A stretch of DNA of 64,000 nt from Aeoliella mucimassa. GTDB lineage: Bacteria > Planctomycetota > Planctomycetia > Pirellulales > Lacipirellulaceae. Location of the stretch: the NCBI RefSeq assembly GCF_007748035.1, contig NZ_CP036278.1, positions 1,550,001 through 1,614,000 on the forward strand, given 5' to 3'. How positions within the stretch are numbered: the stretch's first letter is position 1; each line of letters begins with the position of its first letter. The position numbers and the translations under genes were made by a program. Below are positions 21,295-27,160 of this stretch, one piece after another. The notes under the pieces were generated by a model that had not been told where the DNA came from, did not search any database, and saw nothing but the letters and a program-made list of their open reading frames with translations.

Positions 21295-22764
21295 ATGACT
21301 AAGCCCTCCGATCCTCCTCCGGTCGCCGATCTCTCGACGCGTACTCAGGCCATCGAGGCCCTGCAGGTGGGCATCGCCATCGCCGACGCCCGCCAGCCGG
21401 ATTGCCCGCTGGTGTACTGCAACGACGCGTTTCAGACGATCACCGGCTACAACCTTTCGGAAGTGCTGGGGCGCAATTGCCGGTTCCTGCAGGGCGACGA
21501 TCGCAATCAGGACGCCCGCCAGCAGATCCGCAACGCGGTTCAAAAGGGCAAGTACTGCAAGGTGCTGATTCGCAACTATCGCAAAGATGGGGCGATGTTC
21601 TGGAACGAGCTGAGCTTGTCGCCGATGCGCGACGCCGAGGGGCAGCTTACCCACTTTGTCGGGCTTGCCAGCGACGTGACCACTCGGGTGGTCGGCAACG
21701 AAAAACGCCGTGAACGCGAAGCCCGGTTGCAGGCGATTCTCGACACCGCGGTCGAAGCCATCATTACCATCGACGAACGCGGTCGCTGCGAGTCGATCAA
21801 TGCGGCCGTGGAGAAGATGTTCGGCTACACAGCCGAAGAACTGCTGGGCAACAACATTTCGGTGTTGATGCCCGAACCCTTCCACAGCGAGCACGATGGC
21901 TATCTTACGAAGTACATGCACACCGGCGAGCAGAAGGTCATCGGCATCGGCCGCGAAGCGTACGGGCTGCACAAAGATGGGCATCAGTTCCCGATTCGGC
22001 TGTCGGTTAGCGAGATTCAACTCGACCGGCGTCGGCTGTTTACGGGGATCATTCACGACATTACCGAGCAGAAAAGTGCCGAAAAACGTCTGGTGCAGTC
22101 CGAGCGACTCGCGGTACTCGGCGAAGCGATGGCCCGCCTGGCCCACGAAAGTCGCAACGCCCTGCAGCGCATCCAGATCGCAGTGGAGACCGCGCGGGTG
22201 TATGCGGATGGGCTGCCACCGCTGCTGGGGCAGCTGGATGCCATTGAGCGAGCCAACGACTCGCTGAACGCGTTGCTCGAAGAATTGCGGAATTATGCGG
22301 CTCCTTTGCACTTGGAACGCAAGGAAGTGTCGCTCGCCAGCGCCTGGCGCGAGGCGTGGAACACCGTGTCGCACCACCTTACCGAACGCAAAGTGGAGCT
22401 GATCGAGCAGTCGGCCGACCCCGAGGCCAAGGCCAATATCGACCGATTCCGCATCGCCCAGGTGTTTCGAAACCTGTTCGAGAACTCGCTGGCCGCGTGC
22501 GACGATCCCGTGCGGATTGTGGTGGCAGTCGAAAAATCGGACGAGAGCGGTGCTCCTCGCTGGCGGATCAGCGTGAGCGACAACGGCCCAGGACTCGATA
22601 TCGAGCAAGCCCGGCGGGTGTTCGAGCCCTTCTTTACCACCAAGGCCAAGGGCACCGGGCTCGGGATGGCCATCGCCCGGCGGATCGTGGAATCGCACGG
22701 CGGTACCATCGCGGTGGTAGCGGCCGCTACCGGCGCGCAATTCGATATCGAGCTACCTGCCTGA
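21295..22764 (+). CDS. Hybrid-input histidine kinase: LOV photosensor + FixL-like PAS + HisKA/HATPase
   Basis: 489 residues from ATG 21295, no membrane segment, so cytoplasmic. Residues ~15-130 are a LOV domain: GRNCRFLQ with the photoactive Cys62, plus flavin-contact Asn94 (RNYRKDG) and Asn104 (FWN). Residues ~145-260 are a second PAS domain whose EHDGYLTKY and VIGIGR motifs align with the FixL oxygen sensor. His200 and Arg220 fall at the haem-ligand and distal-Arg positions; Arg206 of FixL is Lys here. The kinase core has the phospho-acceptor His284 (LAHESRN), N-box (NLFENSLAA), DNGPGLD and GTGLGM. It probably phosphorylates the divergent NtrC-family regulator at 23359-24714. A GTG start at 21193 is possible but unsupported by a ribosome site. 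Confidence 0.9.
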   Translation: MTKPSDPPPVADLSTRTQAIEALQVGIAIADARQPDCPLVYCNDAFQTITGYNLSEVLGRNCRFLQGDDRNQDARQQIRNAVQKGKYCKVLIRNYRKDGAMFWNELSLSPMRDAEGQLTHFVGLASDVTTRVVGNEKRREREARLQAILDTAVEAIITIDERGRCESINAAVEKMFGYTAEELLGNNISVLMPEPFHSEHDGYLTKYMHTGEQKVIGIGREAYGLHKDGHQFPIRLSVSEIQLDRRRLFTGIIHDITEQKSAEKRLVQSERLAVLGEAMARLAHESRNALQRIQIAVETARVYADGLPPLLGQLDAIERANDSLNALLEELRNYAAPLHLERKEVSLASAWREAWNTVSHHLTERKVELIEQSADPEAKANIDRFRIAQVFRNLFENSLAACDDPVRIVVAVEKSDESGAPRWRISVSDNGPGLDIEQARRVFEPFFTTKAKGTGLGMAIARRIVESHGGTIAVVAAATGAQFDIELPA

Positions 22765-22925: not shown

Positions 22926-22940
22926 CGGCACGCGACTTGC
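22926..22940 (+). promoter_or_regulatory. Sigma-54 promoter candidate for the BON-domain gene
   Basis: GGCACG and TTGC boxes with exact GG-N10-GC spacing (GG 22927-22928, GC 22939-22940), matching the -24/-12 consensus except for the T before GG. Predicted start of transcription is about 22952, giving a ~60-nt leader to the BON start codon. Confidence 0.65.
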
Positions 22941-23013
22941 GTAGTTTTTGGTTAGCCGAAAATTCATGGCTACACCTATTCAAGCGAGTTTGACTGCGAG
23001 GAGGGGCCGATCC

Positions 23014-23292
23014 ATGGCAACCGCTTCATCAAAATCAATGACCGCTGCTTCCACAGATCCAACTGCGGGCGGCACGCAAAAGCAAACGCTGGTCGAGTTC
23101 GCAGGCCCCACAACCCACCCGGCGATTACGCAGATCGTCTGCGAGGTCACCGGCGATCAAGTTCGGTTGTGCGGTCAGGTACCGACCTTTTATTTGAAGC
23201 AACTAGCTCAAGAAACAGCGAGCCACGTCGAAGGGATTCGCTGCGTGTTTAACAATGTGGAAGTGTGCGCCAACCGGAGCAGCTGGCGCTAA
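23014..23292 (+). CDS. Small BON-domain protein
   Basis: 92 residues from ATG 23014, chosen because a strong ribosome site GAGGAGGGG ends 7 bp before it; ATG 22966 would add 16 residues. Residues ~30-90 look like one BON domain (THPAITQIVCEVTGDQVRLCGQVPTF... then VEGIRCVFNNVEV). BON domains are small alpha/beta modules that bind lipids or ligands and are common in osmotic/envelope stress proteins. There is no signal peptide or lipobox, so it is predicted cytoplasmic. A sigma-54-type promoter precedes it and a strong terminator follows, so it is a single-gene transcript probably driven by the neighbouring NtrC-type activator. Confidence 0.7.
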   Translation: MATASSKSMTAASTDPTAGGTQKQTLVEFAGPTTHPAITQIVCEVTGDQVRLCGQVPTFYLKQLAQETASHVEGIRCVFNNVEVCANRSSWR

Positions 23293-23358: not shown

Positions 23359-24714
23359 TTAGCTATTCACTTCGCTTCGTTCGATGTGGTATTTCTCGAT
23401 TAACCGATAGAGGCTACGGCGGCTGACGCCGAGCGATTTTGCCGCCCGCAGTTTGTTACCACCTTCGTGCTGCAGGGCTTGCACCACGCGAGCGCGGGTG
23501 AGGCTGGCCAGGTCGACATCCGGCGCCAGCACGGTGGCGCCGGAGGCATTCGCTTGACCCACCACCTCGGGCGGCAGGTTCTCTTTTCGCAGCACTTCGT
23601 CGTCGGCCAGGATCTTCGCCCGCTCGATGGCGTTGATCAGCTGACGCACGTTGCCTGGCCACGAGTAGCGCGCGATCGCCTCGCGGCATTCGCGATCGAA
23701 TTCCCAGCCTTCGCCGGCAAAATGATCGGCCAGCAGCAGGATGTCGTCGGTCGTGCGACCTCGCAGCGGAGGCAACATGATGGTCATCATGTTGATCCGG
23801 TAGTAAAGGTCTTCGCGGAACCGTTTGGCTTCCACTTCAGCACTTAAATCGCGATTGGTGGCCGCAATCATTCGCACATCGACGTGACGCTCTTTGAGCG
23901 AACCGACGCGGCGGAGCGAGCCATCTTCGAGCACCCTTAGCAGCTTGGGCTGCAGCGCTGGGGCGAGCTCGCCGATTTCGTCGATGAACAAGGTGCCACC
24001 GTCGGCGACTTCGAACAAGCCAGGCTTCGAGGCGGCCGCGCCGGTGAAGGCTCCCTTCTCGTGACCAAACAGTTCGCTCTCGAGCAGCGGTTCGGGTAGG
24101 GCCGCGCAGTTGATCACCACCAGCGGTTTGTCCGACCGGCAACTCGCATCGTGCAGCGCCCGGGCGACGAGTTCCTTACCGGTGCCGCTCTCGCCTTGAA
24201 TGAGAATCGGCTTCTCGCTGGGGGCAGCCCGCTCGATCAAGCGAAACACTTCTTCCATGGCCGGCGATTCGCCGATCATCTTGTGCTTCGAGTGGCCGCG
24301 TTGCAGCAAGGCCTTGAGCTGGCGATTCTCTTTGCGAATGTTCGCGGTGTCGCCCGCCTTGGCGATCACGGTTTCCAATTGCTTCATCCGCACCGGCTTG
24401 GTGAGGAAGTCGTAGGCCCCGAGCTTCATCGCCTCGACGGCGCGCTCGATGGTGCCTTGCCCGGTGAGAAGGATGACTTCCATTTCGGGATTGTCGTCCT
24501 TCACCTTCTCGAGCAATTGAATGCCCGACATCCCCGGCATCACCATGTCGACCACCGCCACGGCGAAGGTGCGACTCGCCAGGGTGTCGACGGCCGTCTC
24601 GCCAGAGTCGGCAGAGGTTACCCGGTGCCCCTGGGCGGTCATGTACGACACCAGTGCTTCGCGAAGTTCCGCGTCGTCGTCAACAATTAATAGGTCGAGG
24701 CTAATGTCGGCCAT
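23359..24714 (-). CDS. NtrC-family sigma-54-dependent response regulator
   Basis: 451 residues from ATG 24714 (GGAG about 9 bp upstream). The receiver domain (1-~120) has the acidic pocket at VDDDAE (12-16) and phospho-acceptor Asp56 (VVDMVMPG). The AAA+ domain has Walker A GESGTGKE, the sigma-54-contacting loop GAFTGA, Walker [13 protein letters not shown] and an arginine-finger region. A Fis-type helix-turn-helix ends the protein ([23 protein letters not shown]). It should convert a phosphorylation signal into opening of sigma-54 promoters. It faces the LOV/PAS histidine kinase and BON gene and has a near-perfect sigma-54 promoter of its own, suggesting positive autoregulation. Confidence 0.93.
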
Positions 24715-24788
24715 CGGTCGTTTTCTCCTGCAAACAGATCCACCACTCCCTCGATGAGCGACGGTAAGACAATACCCGGACCACTTAA

Positions 24789-24803
24789 GCAACTCGGGTG
24801 CCA
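24789..24803 (-). promoter_or_regulatory. Sigma-54 promoter of the response-regulator gene
   Basis: Read on the minus strand the element is TGGCAC, five bases, TTGCT, matching the -24/-12 consensus with exact GG-N10-GC spacing. Transcription would start near 24777, giving a ~60-nt leader before ATG 24714. Confidence 0.75.
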
Positions 24804-24857: not shown

Positions 24858-24915
24858 GCACACTTCGCAGTGTGCGGTCACTGTGCCGCACAGTTGATGT
24901 GTGCGGCGACGCACA
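24858..24915. promoter_or_regulatory. Cluster of TGTGC/GCACA palindromes upstream of the regulator promoter
   Basis: Three overlapping or adjacent inverted repeats: GCACAC/GTGTGC (24858-24875), TGTGCGG/CCGCACA (24871-24892) and TGTGCG/CGCACA (24900-24915). Centres lie about 65, 80 and 106 bp upstream of the -24 box, a usual distance for sigma-54 activator sites. The third has the TGTGC-N6-GCACA form seen before uspA. Confidence 0.65.
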
Positions 24916-25161
24916 GCTTGTTGTACCTTATCCCCCTCGAAATCGCAGTTAGCGCGGCTCGAATAATCGCGTAAATCCTGTTTTTCTCGGTGTCGCACAC
25001 ATAGGGAACCCTGCGGCTTGTCAGGCATCGTCGATGTCGGTTTTGTCGCGCTGCAAACGTTGTATCGCTTGCGGCAAGCCGAGGGCAATAGCACCATCGC
25101 ATCCAAAGGTGAGTGATGGATCGACTCCCCCCCATCGAGTGTAGGAAGCCTCCGCGGTTTT
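24916..25161. other. Intergenic region without a gene
   Basis: No coding signal on either strand between the regulator control region and the GC-rich hairpins. One more GCACAC half-site lies near 24994. Confidence 0.4.
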
Positions 25162-25314
25162 GCCCCCACTTCGGCGAAATCGATTCGTGGGGGCTTTATT
25201 CGCTCGATAGTGCCCCCACCCACATCAAAAAACAACGCGTTTCCCCGAGGCTTCTCGTGGGGGGTGGGGGCAAAACGTTTGGCGAAGTGCCCCCGGTCGA
25301 ATCAGGTGGGGGCA
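25162..25314. repeat. Three successive hairpins sharing the stem TGCCCCC/GGGGGCA
   Basis: Hairpin 1: GCCCCCAC (25162-25169) with GTGGGGGC (25187-25194), followed by TTTATT. Hairpin 2: TGCCCCCACC from 25211 with GGTGGGGGCA ending at 25272. Hairpin 3: TGCCCCC (25288-25294) with GGGGGCA (25308-25314). The same stem sequence is used three times within 153 bp in otherwise non-coding DNA; function unknown. Confidence 0.55.
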
Positions 25315-25507
25315 GAACACCGGTCGCTGCAACATGTTGGGAGATGCTCATCGGTTCGTGATCGCTTGGGTGTGGCGGGCGGGGTATTGCGGTATGTATG
25401 TACATTACCACAGCAGGTGGCCAATTCCTAGCGAAAAATGACCGATTGCCAGGGACTCTCCAACACGCTTTAGGCTGCATTTTCAGCCGTTTGTTGTGGG
25501 GGGACCC
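25315..25507. other. Intergenic region downstream of the zinc-ribbon gene
   Basis: Nothing recognisable. It follows the stop codon of the minus-strand zinc-ribbon gene and has no T-tailed hairpin in that direction. Confidence 0.35.
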
Positions 25508-25879: not shown

Positions 25880-25895
25880 TGTGCCGGGTCGCACA
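25880..25895. promoter_or_regulatory. TGTGC-N6-GCACA site upstream of uspA
   Basis: TGTGC (25880-25884) and GCACA (25891-25895), centred 94 bp upstream of the -24 box at 25982. Same half-sites and spacing as 24900-24915. Confidence 0.6.
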
Positions 25896-25980: not shown

Positions 25981-25995
25981 TGGCATCAAAATTGC
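25981..25995 (+). promoter_or_regulatory. Sigma-54 promoter candidate for the uspA pair
   Basis: TGGCAT, five bases, TTGCA, with exact GG-N10-GC spacing; one mismatch to TGGCAC. Predicted transcription start is near 26007. Confidence 0.7.
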
Positions 25996-26011
25996 ATTTG
26001 TATAGGATTGA

Positions 26012-26074: not shown

Positions 26075-26662
26075 ATGAATCTTCATGCCATCCTATGCCC
26101 TGTCGACTTTTCGAAGTCGAGCGAGGCGGCGCTACAGCATGCTTCGGCACTCGCCGTAGAGGCCGATGCGAAGCTCTATATCTTGCATGTGATCGACGAG
26201 AGTGCAGCCTACTGCACCGAGTACACCGGCATGGGTTACATGCCCGACATGTCGCAACGCATCGAGTACGAATGCTCTCACTTGTTAGACGAGATCGAGC
26301 CAACTGAGCCGAAGGTTCGTTTCGAACGAATACTAATGCTGGGACCACCCGCCCGCACGATTGCGAAGGTGGCCGAGGATAAAAAGGTGGATCTCATCGT
26401 GATGGGATCGCACGGGCGGACCGGAGTGTCGCGACTGCTGATGGGGAGTGTTGCGGAAGAAGTGGTACGACTGGCCAAGTGCCCAGTGCTCACCATGAAG
26501 CACCCCGTGGGTGTCGACGTGGCTGGCAGCGGGGCGGTGCCGGTGATGTCGAAGGCCACTGCAGAGCAAACCAGCGGTGAGGAAGATCCTGTGTCCCGGC
26601 CACACTTGTCGGGTTCGCCGCTGGCGAATGGAGCCCAGGAGGCAAACAGAAGGCCAGGGTAA
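26075..26662 (+). CDS. Universal stress protein (UspA family) with long C-terminal tail
   Basis: 195 residues from ATG 26075, preceded by GGAGG at 26065-26069. The core (1-~145) is a single Usp domain: ILCPVDFSKSSE at the start, then the ATP-binding pattern GSHGRTGVSRLLMGSVAEEVV and LTMKHP at the end of the last strand. The final ~50 residues (from about VGVDVAG) are low-complexity and unlike the family. Usp proteins are small cytoplasmic, often ATP-binding, proteins made in stasis, hypoxia or other stress. A sigma-54 promoter and activator site precede it; a second usp gene follows 66 bp later. Confidence 0.88.
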   Translation: MNLHAILCPVDFSKSSEAALQHASALAVEADAKLYILHVIDESAAYCTEYTGMGYMPDMSQRIEYECSHLLDEIEPTEPKVRFERILMLGPPARTIAKVAEDKKVDLIVMGSHGRTGVSRLLMGSVAEEVVRLAKCPVLTMKHPVGVDVAGSGAVPVMSKATAEQTSGEEDPVSRPHLSGSPLANGAQEANRRPG

Positions 26663-26728: not shown

Positions 26729-27160
26729 ATGAAAAACTGGTTTATGAACAAGAAAGTGCTTGTTCCGGTCGACTTCAGTGAGGAGTCGATGAAGGCCGTG
26801 GACGACGCGATTGAAATGGCCGACACGAACGAGTTGGTTCACGTGGTGCACGTGGCTCCCGATCTCGATGTGACCACCCCGGGGGTCGTGTGGGAGTCGA
26901 TCAGCGAGGACGTGCAGCGCGAGCACGTGCTGAAGACGTTCGCCAAGACGTTTGCCTCTCCCAAGTACGATGGAGTTTCCTATCACGTGGCGTTTGGCGA
27001 TGCGGGACGGGGCATCGTTAAGCACGCCGAGCAGATCGACGCCGACGTGATAGTCATGCCATCCCACGGACGCGCCGGGTTCCGGCGTCTATTGTTGGGA
27101 TCGGTTGCCGAGCGGGTGCTACGGCTGGCGCACCTGCCGGTGCTGGTGTTGCGGCACTAA
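26729..27160 (+). CDS. Universal stress protein (UspA family)
   Basis: 143 residues from ATG 26729 (AGGA at 26717-26720), normal family length. Motifs: VLVPVDFSEESMKAV, VIVMPSHGRAGFRRLLLGSVAERVL (G-2x-G-9x-G-S nucleotide loop) and VLVLRH at the end. It probably shares the transcript of the preceding usp gene and could form heterodimers with it. Its stop codon overlaps, tail to tail, that of the minus-strand PEP-CTERM gene. Confidence 0.9.
   Translation: MKNWFMNKKVLVPVDFSEESMKAVDDAIEMADTNELVHVVHVAPDLDVTTPGVVWESISEDVQREHVLKTFAKTFASPKYDGVSYHVAFGDAGRGIVKHAEQIDADVIVMPSHGRAGFRRLLLGSVAERVLRLAHLPVLVLRH

Follow-up and report, generated by a model that had tools for sequence, protein, structure and literature searches.

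A planctomycete histidine kinase joining a LOV domain and a FixL-type PAS domain: a possible sensor of both blue light and oxygen

Can one soluble histidine kinase read both blue light and oxygen? The question is raised by a gene of Aeoliella mucimassa lying in a stretch of 64,000 nucleotides, here called the window, for which the original prediction proposed a LOV-PAS-histidine-kinase protein at 21295-22764 (+). This architecture was borne out: the ORF list and the translation revealed an intact frame of 489 codons with an ATG start and no internal stop, and Pfam assigned PAS_9 to residues 34-129, PAS to 144-256, HisKA to 276-335 and HATPase_c to 383-488, the HisKA score (25.4 bits) being just below its cut-off of 26.9 and HATPase_c above its own. 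Along the + strand follow the LOV domain (about residues 17-131; 21343..21687), the FixL-type PAS domain (about residues 139-257; 21709..22065) and the DHp and catalytic domains (22066..22761). The phospho-acceptor, His284, is at the expected position, and the kinase boxes (H284, N393/N397, D429-G433, F443-K450 and G453-G457) fall in columns that are invariant or nearly so among 24 sequences. The best NCBIfam match is FixL (NF041777; residues 64-489, 239 bits against a cut-off of 850); with the score under the cut-off and an NtrC-type regulator as neighbour in place of a FixJ-type partner, the sequence does not make the kinase a FixL proper. The protein looks soluble and appears to join a blue-light domain to what is probably a haem-based oxygen domain. 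We favour, with a rough probability of 0.6, a dual-input soluble sensor kinase that low oxygen would activate and blue light would modulate, the oxygen input being the better supported of the two. That the protein may sense both signals is backed by its sequence, its predicted fold, conservation in orthologues, the swapping of sensors among relatives and the predicted targets.

In the PDB, the LOV part is best matched by LOV chains of a histidine kinase and of phototropins; it aligned at E 2e-39 with 9vf7_A, an entry that bears the title 'histidine kinase' and contains the LOV motif. The adduct-forming Cys62 is present in GRNCRFLQ (pattern GXNCRFLQ), as are the two asparagines of the flavin ring, Asn94 and Asn104, and to this extent the domain is the canonical LOV that had been claimed. 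However, the glutamine of strand I-beta (FxGxQxD), kept in all five PDB LOV alignments shown, is Ala125 here, so that 'canonical' is too strong, and the unqualified term was rejected. In the four other LOV-bearing orthologues the position holds Met, Thr, Cys and Cys; Cys62, both Asn and the remaining flavin-contact motif are conserved in the five species, which belong to three genera. The loss of Gln in all five LOV-bearing orthologues found would suit an oxygen-only haem-PAS kinase, in which the LOV domain is uncoupled or serves as a passive PAS-A-like spacer or dimer contact, and the PAS-A of FixL, which is not known as a haem sensor, counts on the same side. We regard this as rather unlikely, since the retained Cys, Asn and flavin-contact motif are hard to explain without photochemistry, and published replacements of the glutamine also speak against it. 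Dietler et al. (PMC9098866) report from a reporter assay that most replacements in YF1, Ala and Cys included, largely spare light signalling, with exceptions that include Pro, His, Trp, Tyr and Arg, and that YtvA Q123A is slightly impaired in light signalling; the same source gives about 350 natural Gln-less LOV receptors, one of which, with Met, responds to blue light. Because Gln is described there as generally dispensable for signalling, we filed the window domain as a Gln-less LOV; on those results with YF1 and the natural receptor, the loss of Gln weakens the word 'canonical' and does not refute light sensing.

The oxygen input of the favoured dual-input kinase would reside in the second PAS domain. 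Among its 20 PDB matches at E<=1e-3, the 13 best are all FixL or DosP/Dos haem-PAS chains, with S. meliloti FixL (E 1.8e-32) and B. japonicum FixL (2.1e-28) followed by E. coli DosP; below these 13 come the multi-sensor kinase 10jx (4.3e-11) and then YtvA (1.1e-5). By homology, the domain would thus be a FixL/DosP haem-PAS. In the alignment with FixL, whose residue numbers we assume for the aligned positions (206, 214 and so on), His200 falls on the proximal His of helix F and Arg220 on the distal Arg, as the original prediction had stated, and the equivalents of Tyr203, Leu236 and Gly251 are retained. The distal Arg of FixL favours O2, and DosP has Met in its place. The domain differs from FixL at positions 206 and 214, both Lys, and at 215 and 238, both Val. 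Arg206 and His214 of B. japonicum FixL contact the haem propionates, a secondary feature that the two lysines of the window domain do not reproduce; S. meliloti FixL has Arg and no His at 214, and the sequence of the FixL entry 2cmn, which we take to hold haem, carries Ala at 206. A caveat had been raised that Arg206 of FixL is Lys here. The Lys was confirmed, but it makes no strong objection to haem because the position varies among PAS domains that carry both His and Arg (R in 11, N in 10, K in 4 and other residues in 9 of 34), and we rejected it as a serious case against haem binding. A ferrochelatase is present, which was counted in favour of the dual-input kinase.

We then asked how often the two residues occur together. 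Among 107 unique PAS domains from all loci gathered, 84 had letters at both positions and could be compared: 34 carry His and Arg, 9 His alone, 6 Arg alone and 35 neither (Fisher p 1.8e-9), in a sample that was seeded with the query's family and uncorrected for kinship, and this co-occurrence supports a joint site and nothing further. A census of PAS domains (PMC10468136) describes this His as what chiefly decides whether haem is bound; about 60% of the FixL/DosP cluster (cluster 3) carry it, and for these members haem binding is suggested only. The 40% of that cluster without the His (PMC10468136), together with the circumstance that most of its members are presumably uncharacterised, could be taken to favour a blue-light kinase whose second PAS holds no haem and acts as a relay only, as is presumed for the PAS of Brucella LOV-HK, a natural LOV-PAS-HK with a non-FixL PAS that is known structurally (6ph4, 6pps). 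Such a kinase seems improbable to us. The 20 PDB matches at E<=1e-3 include FixL and DosP and none of the Brucella LOV-HK chains, His and Arg coincide in 34 of the 84 domains of the query-seeded and kinship-uncorrected sample, the orthologues without LOV retain the PAS, and sister kinases carry a protoglobin.

An AlphaFold model of the kinase, made with 24 sequences (mean pLDDT 87.2, pTM 0.55), was compared with known structures by Foldseek. It matched the haem-bound FixL tandem PAS 8js5_B with a target TM of 0.80 and an rmsd of 3.5 A over 256 columns; the LOV-FixL chimeras 8a7f and 4gcz ranked first and fifth by E-value, with poor whole-chain superposition, and the Brucella LOV-HK entries 6ph4 and 6pps were also among the matches. 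In the model, the LOV-PAS tandem resembles the haem-bound PAS-A/PAS-B tandem of FixL. The linker from LOV to PAS is 18 residues long in all five LOV-bearing orthologues, and the linker from PAS-A to PAS-B in FixL 8js5 is also 18 (residues 126 to 144, counted from the numbering). From the PAS to the DHp His the spacer is 29 in the six rows measured, whereas that of FixL is 36, one heptad longer.

The kinase was searched for in the 43 genomes of the window's GTDB family at E<=1e-60 (genomes are labelled G and loci L), and 16 of them gave a match. Reading of the frames revealed LOV-PAS-HK in G000 and G004; an extra PAS followed by LOV in G018, G001 and G002; PAS-HK without LOV in G005, of the same genus, and in G014, G021 and G039; and a non-LOV PAS followed by the FixL-type PAS in G025 and G024. 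The remaining five, sister kinases at a greater distance (G027, G028, G030, G033 and G036; loci L020-L024), differ at the N-terminus, where another sensor precedes an ordinary PAS and the kinase core that all share; the sensor is Protoglobin by Pfam in all three that were scanned, another type of haem protein than haem-PAS on that core. All 11 haem-PAS orthologues retain the His/Arg pair of the FixL-type PAS. LOV is present in five of these and absent from six, one of which is of the same genus, and that the haem-PAS residues stay where LOV is missing is a further point for the oxygen-only kinase. Given this absence, the core signal of the dual-input kinase seems to be oxygen, with light as an added modulator; we infer that the constant theme would be haem oxygen sensing, with light as an option. 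In the kinase-core tree (16 rows), 7 of 13 inner branches are well supported and three are open, and the five-member globin group forms one clade with support 100/99. The presence of LOV needs three changes on this tree, and the label shows no strong clustering, 54 of 500 shuffles being as low. Three changes on the best tree mean that LOV would have been gained or lost more than once, a result that holds on the best tree and that the well-supported branches alone are insufficient to force. In the window genome's order, four loci (L106-L109) carry a LOV-like domain without the Cys, such as GETPEIFH, before a FixL-like PAS; these are possibly former LOV domains. The window genome itself has a second FixL-like PAS protein (L005, contig position about 4,350,000) in a frame of 729 residues, HDSYLQAYLTTGERKVIGIGR.

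The probable partner of the kinase is an NtrC-type sigma-54 response regulator (23359..24714, -), in which Pfam finds receiver, AAA+ and HTH domains and whose start we set at the ATG of MADISLDLL. Its gene lies on the opposite strand with its end 594 bp beyond the kinase gene, and in between is the gene of a small BON-domain protein (22966..23292, +), the match of which is just below the Pfam cut-off. We compared neighbourhoods in stretches of up to 20 kb at 10 other haem-PAS loci and four protoglobin loci. Besides the window, 7 of the 10 have the regulator close to the kinase (69-84% identical), and it is found at all four protoglobin loci examined (58-61% identical); universal stress proteins are nearby at 7 of 10 and 3 of 4, respectively, and the BON gene at 6 of 10 and none of the 4. 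In the haem-PAS genome G014, the regulator is on a separate contig (L168). Directly after the regulator gene, L126 (12630-13397) and L130 (4206-4985) encode a membrane protein that by eye is VIT1/CCC1-like. A parallel pairing was seen on a Mesorhizobium plasmid (L193, 1407-4568), where a FixL-like kinase and FixJ adjoin a universal stress protein gene.

Sigma-54 promoter-like sites stand ahead of the regulator gene (TGGCACCCGAGTTGCT, 24788..24803, -), ahead of the genes for universal stress proteins 1 (26075..26662, +) and 2 (26729..27160, +) (TGGCATCAAAATTGCA, 25981..25996, +), and ahead of the BON gene (a -24/-12-like site at 22926..22941, +, with 10 of 12 scored positions), and they recur before some of the same genes in relatives. 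Upstream of such sites lies a palindrome, TGTGC-N6-GCACA, represented by TGTGCGGCGACGCACA (24900..24915), 112 bp upstream of the regulator's promoter, and by TGTGCCGGGTCGCACA (25880..25895), 101 bp upstream of the universal stress protein promoter; when half-site pairs with spacers of 2-10 were counted in the window and 14 loci, the spacer was 6 in 13 of 16 exact pairs. Between these two enhancers, at 25160-25315, there are two copies of GTGGGGGCA and two of its inverse, TGCCCCCAC, with no others in the window. Taking as a pair a promoter score of at least 10 and a palindrome with at most one mismatch 70-120 bp upstream, we found 23 pairs in 319,483 bases from 15 loci; 60 dinucleotide shuffles gave 0.12 on average and never more than 1. 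Raising the promoter score to at least 11 left 14 pairs against 0.02. No pair was found in L124, L131-L135 or L137. Of the 43 genomes of the family, 9 contain the strict pair, with 17 rows in all, some of the rows being one palindrome common to two divergent promoters; the reversed-pattern control gave 0. Among the 11 genomes that encode the haem-PAS kinase, six have the strict pair and five do not, and three of the nine pair-bearing genomes (G011, G015 and G023) are without a kinase match at E<=1e-60.

The exact palindrome alone occurs at 10 sites in the 6.6 Mb of the window genome (reversed control, 1), where about 6-8 would be expected by our own estimate from base frequencies; since this is near chance, the weight rests on the palindrome-promoter pairs only. 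Seven of the 10 sites (L138, L139, L140, L143, L144, L145 and L147) are without a sigma-54 site (score of at least 9, 50-250 bp), and the palindrome alone was rejected as a regulon marker; for the same reason, the acetyl-CoA hydrolase/transferase of L147 is a lead only. The regulator probably drives sigma-54 promoters through the shared TGTGC-N6-GCACA enhancer.

In the window genome, the predicted targets linked to a pair are the regulator itself, the universal stress protein genes and a membrane pyrophosphatase (L146). Searches with half-sites returned 15 loci, of which L149, L150 and L158 are the regulator and universal stress protein region of the window and L154 is the pyrophosphatase; L152 and L156 have two mismatches, the frame after L156 being by eye like a LuxR-type regulator, and eight others were dropped with palindromes of 4-5 mismatches. 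PEP carboxykinase (PckA; L161, also among the 15) and BON are weaker candidates. The former has a good sigma-54 site and a palindrome with three mismatches; the BON gene has a promoter-like site and, over the 270 start positions covered by the scan, no palindrome with at most two mismatches. For pyruvate:ferredoxin oxidoreductase, the window genome has two POR_N loci, both without a convincing enhancer/promoter pair, and in G039 an exact palindrome precedes this gene without a clear sigma-54 site.

In relatives, the pair-linked genes again include the regulator itself and universal stress proteins, and in addition a hemerythrin-domain protein (L163, confirmed by Pfam; similar by eye in L170), a malate synthase-like protein (L166) and the formate transporter FocA (L169, in G015, a genome without a kinase match). 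A DHOD-like protein lies before the regulator gene on the same strand in L126/L179 and L127/L173 (families scanned for L126), and PQQ-like, CBS-domain and cytochrome-like proteins were recognised by eye in the other pair rows (L167, L175, L176-L178). In L126, cytochrome c552 nitrite reductase and its NapC/NirT-type partner are encoded behind the universal stress protein genes, on the same strand. Many of these candidates suit low oxygen or low energy; against a low-oxygen regulon, the pyruvate:ferredoxin oxidoreductase genes of the window genome fall outside the set, malate synthase is not anaerobic, and universal stress proteins and energy genes serve other stresses too. Haem-PAS proteins vary in ligand, and the nitrite reductase genes behind the universal stress protein promoter of G001 could indicate that the haem PAS reads NO, CO or the haem redox state instead of oxygen. 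This too seems improbable, as the Arg at the FixL distal position is kept in 11 of 11 orthologues and the named targets are mostly stress and energy genes, none of which, besides nitrite reductase, was recognised as NO-handling.

In the mechanism that we propose for the dual-input kinase, the FixL-type PAS would bind haem b via His200, with Arg220 on the distal side, and the departure of oxygen from the haem would switch on the kinase at His284, which would phosphorylate the neighbouring NtrC-type regulator. The latter would bind TGTGC-N6-GCACA, located roughly 80-110 bp ahead of sigma-54 promoters, and turn on a low-oxygen or low-energy programme of universal stress proteins, membrane pyrophosphatase and the regulator itself, to which relatives would add the formate channel, the hemerythrin-like and DHOD-like proteins, and nitrite reductase behind the universal stress protein operon. 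The LOV domain would occupy the place of the FixL PAS-A; under blue light, an adduct between Cys62 and the flavin would form, and its signal would travel along the same coiled-coil linker to the haem PAS and the kinase. By analogy with the LOV-FixL construct YF1, blue light would most likely lower kinase activity, so that output would be highest in the dark without oxygen. We advance tentatively, at somewhat less than even odds, a stricter form in which the Gln-less LOV and the haem PAS make a natural two-signal gate, the programme running only when it is both dark and oxygen-poor, on a chassis refitted in evolution: the same kinase and regulator with protoglobin, with haem-PAS alone, or with haem-PAS plus LOV.

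How rare is the tandem? A sample of the phylum gave matches in 19 of 392 genomes, among them that of the window, with the best up to six candidates scored per genome; a LOV with Cys followed by a FixL-type PAS was found in none of the 18 other loci, among the matches listed and in frames of up to 900 residues, and one of them (L110) has a LOV with Cys and Gln and another kind of PAS. By pattern, none of the best 80 matching loci on genome contigs had both the LOV and the His/Arg motifs. Among plasmids, 270 records matched, and 3 of the 11 examined (L180, L181 and L192) had both; three further loci had a LOV-like motif without His/Arg (with Cys in L189 and L191, with Ser in L190). In L180, L181 and L192, a Cys-bearing LOV is followed by a FixL-like PAS (His...Pro-Arg) in large hybrid kinases on plasmids of the marine Gammaproteobacteria Vibrio coralliilyticus, Vibrio europaeus and Pseudoalteromonas xiamenensis. 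At least one further lineage has thus come by the tandem, whether through separate origin or through spread. EAL-domain genes adjoin all three. We found no report of a natural LOV and haem-PAS kinase in full-text literature, a scope that most subscription journals and supplementary files fall outside. The claim that the combination is rare therefore stands within the scope searched, tempered by the three marine kinases, by the known LOV-PAS-HK of Brucella with its non-FixL PAS and by a published engineered protein, YHF: LOV-PAS kinases, YHF and the marine tandem exist, and a described natural soluble kinase with LOV and haem-PAS was not found in the literature searched.

If the favoured dual-input kinase is real, a dual sensor made in the laboratory would have its equivalent in nature, and a natural test of whether a Gln-less LOV signals through a second PAS domain would be at hand. 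YHF showed that one kinase can carry LOV and haem PAS in tandem and integrate light and oxygen; the relatives with LOV, without it and with protoglobin would allow tests of how such sensors are gained, lost and coupled in evolution, with the candidate target promoters as read-out, and a low-oxygen regulon is proposed for a family of planctomycete type.

Compared with known systems, the kinase shares with FixL of Sinorhizobium meliloti and Bradyrhizobium japonicum the His200/Arg220 haem-PAS, the PAS-PAS-HK layout and the length of the PAS-PAS linker; unlike FixL, it has LOV for PAS-A, Lys at 206 and 214, and an NtrC-type sigma-54 regulator as neighbour where the partner of FixL is FixJ. The LOV-HK of Brucella abortus (6ph4, 6pps) is natural and has the same LOV-PAS-HK order, but its PAS is not FixL-like by sequence; its LOV keeps the Gln, and its kinase belongs to another family. 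The marine hybrid kinases have about 1,590 residues, with a membrane part, further PAS, receiver and HPt-like parts recognised by eye, against 489 residues here; their LOV-PAS linker is 33 (L180, L181) against 18, and two of the three keep the Gln. YHF, reportedly an engineered fusion of LOV, haem-PAS and the FixL kinase credited to Moglich in 2010, has the sensor order and the output of the window kinase; it is man-made and derived from YF1, whereas the window kinase occurs naturally and has a Gln-less LOV, another partner and another regulon. YHF is described as answering blue light and oxygen with positive cooperation (PMC6798134), and engineered LOV/haem kinases are also cited in PMC9614035. 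AppA of Rhodobacter, a natural protein for blue light and haem/redox with BLUF and a haem-binding SCHIC domain (PMC4844311), has domains unrelated to those found here and acts on the repressor PpsR, not as a kinase. With the Gln-less LOV receptors (LOV-delta-Q, PMC9098866), the window protein shares the retained Cys and flavin contacts and the replacement of Gln by A, M, T or C; the natural case tested in that work is a diguanylate cyclase, whereas the window protein is a kinase.
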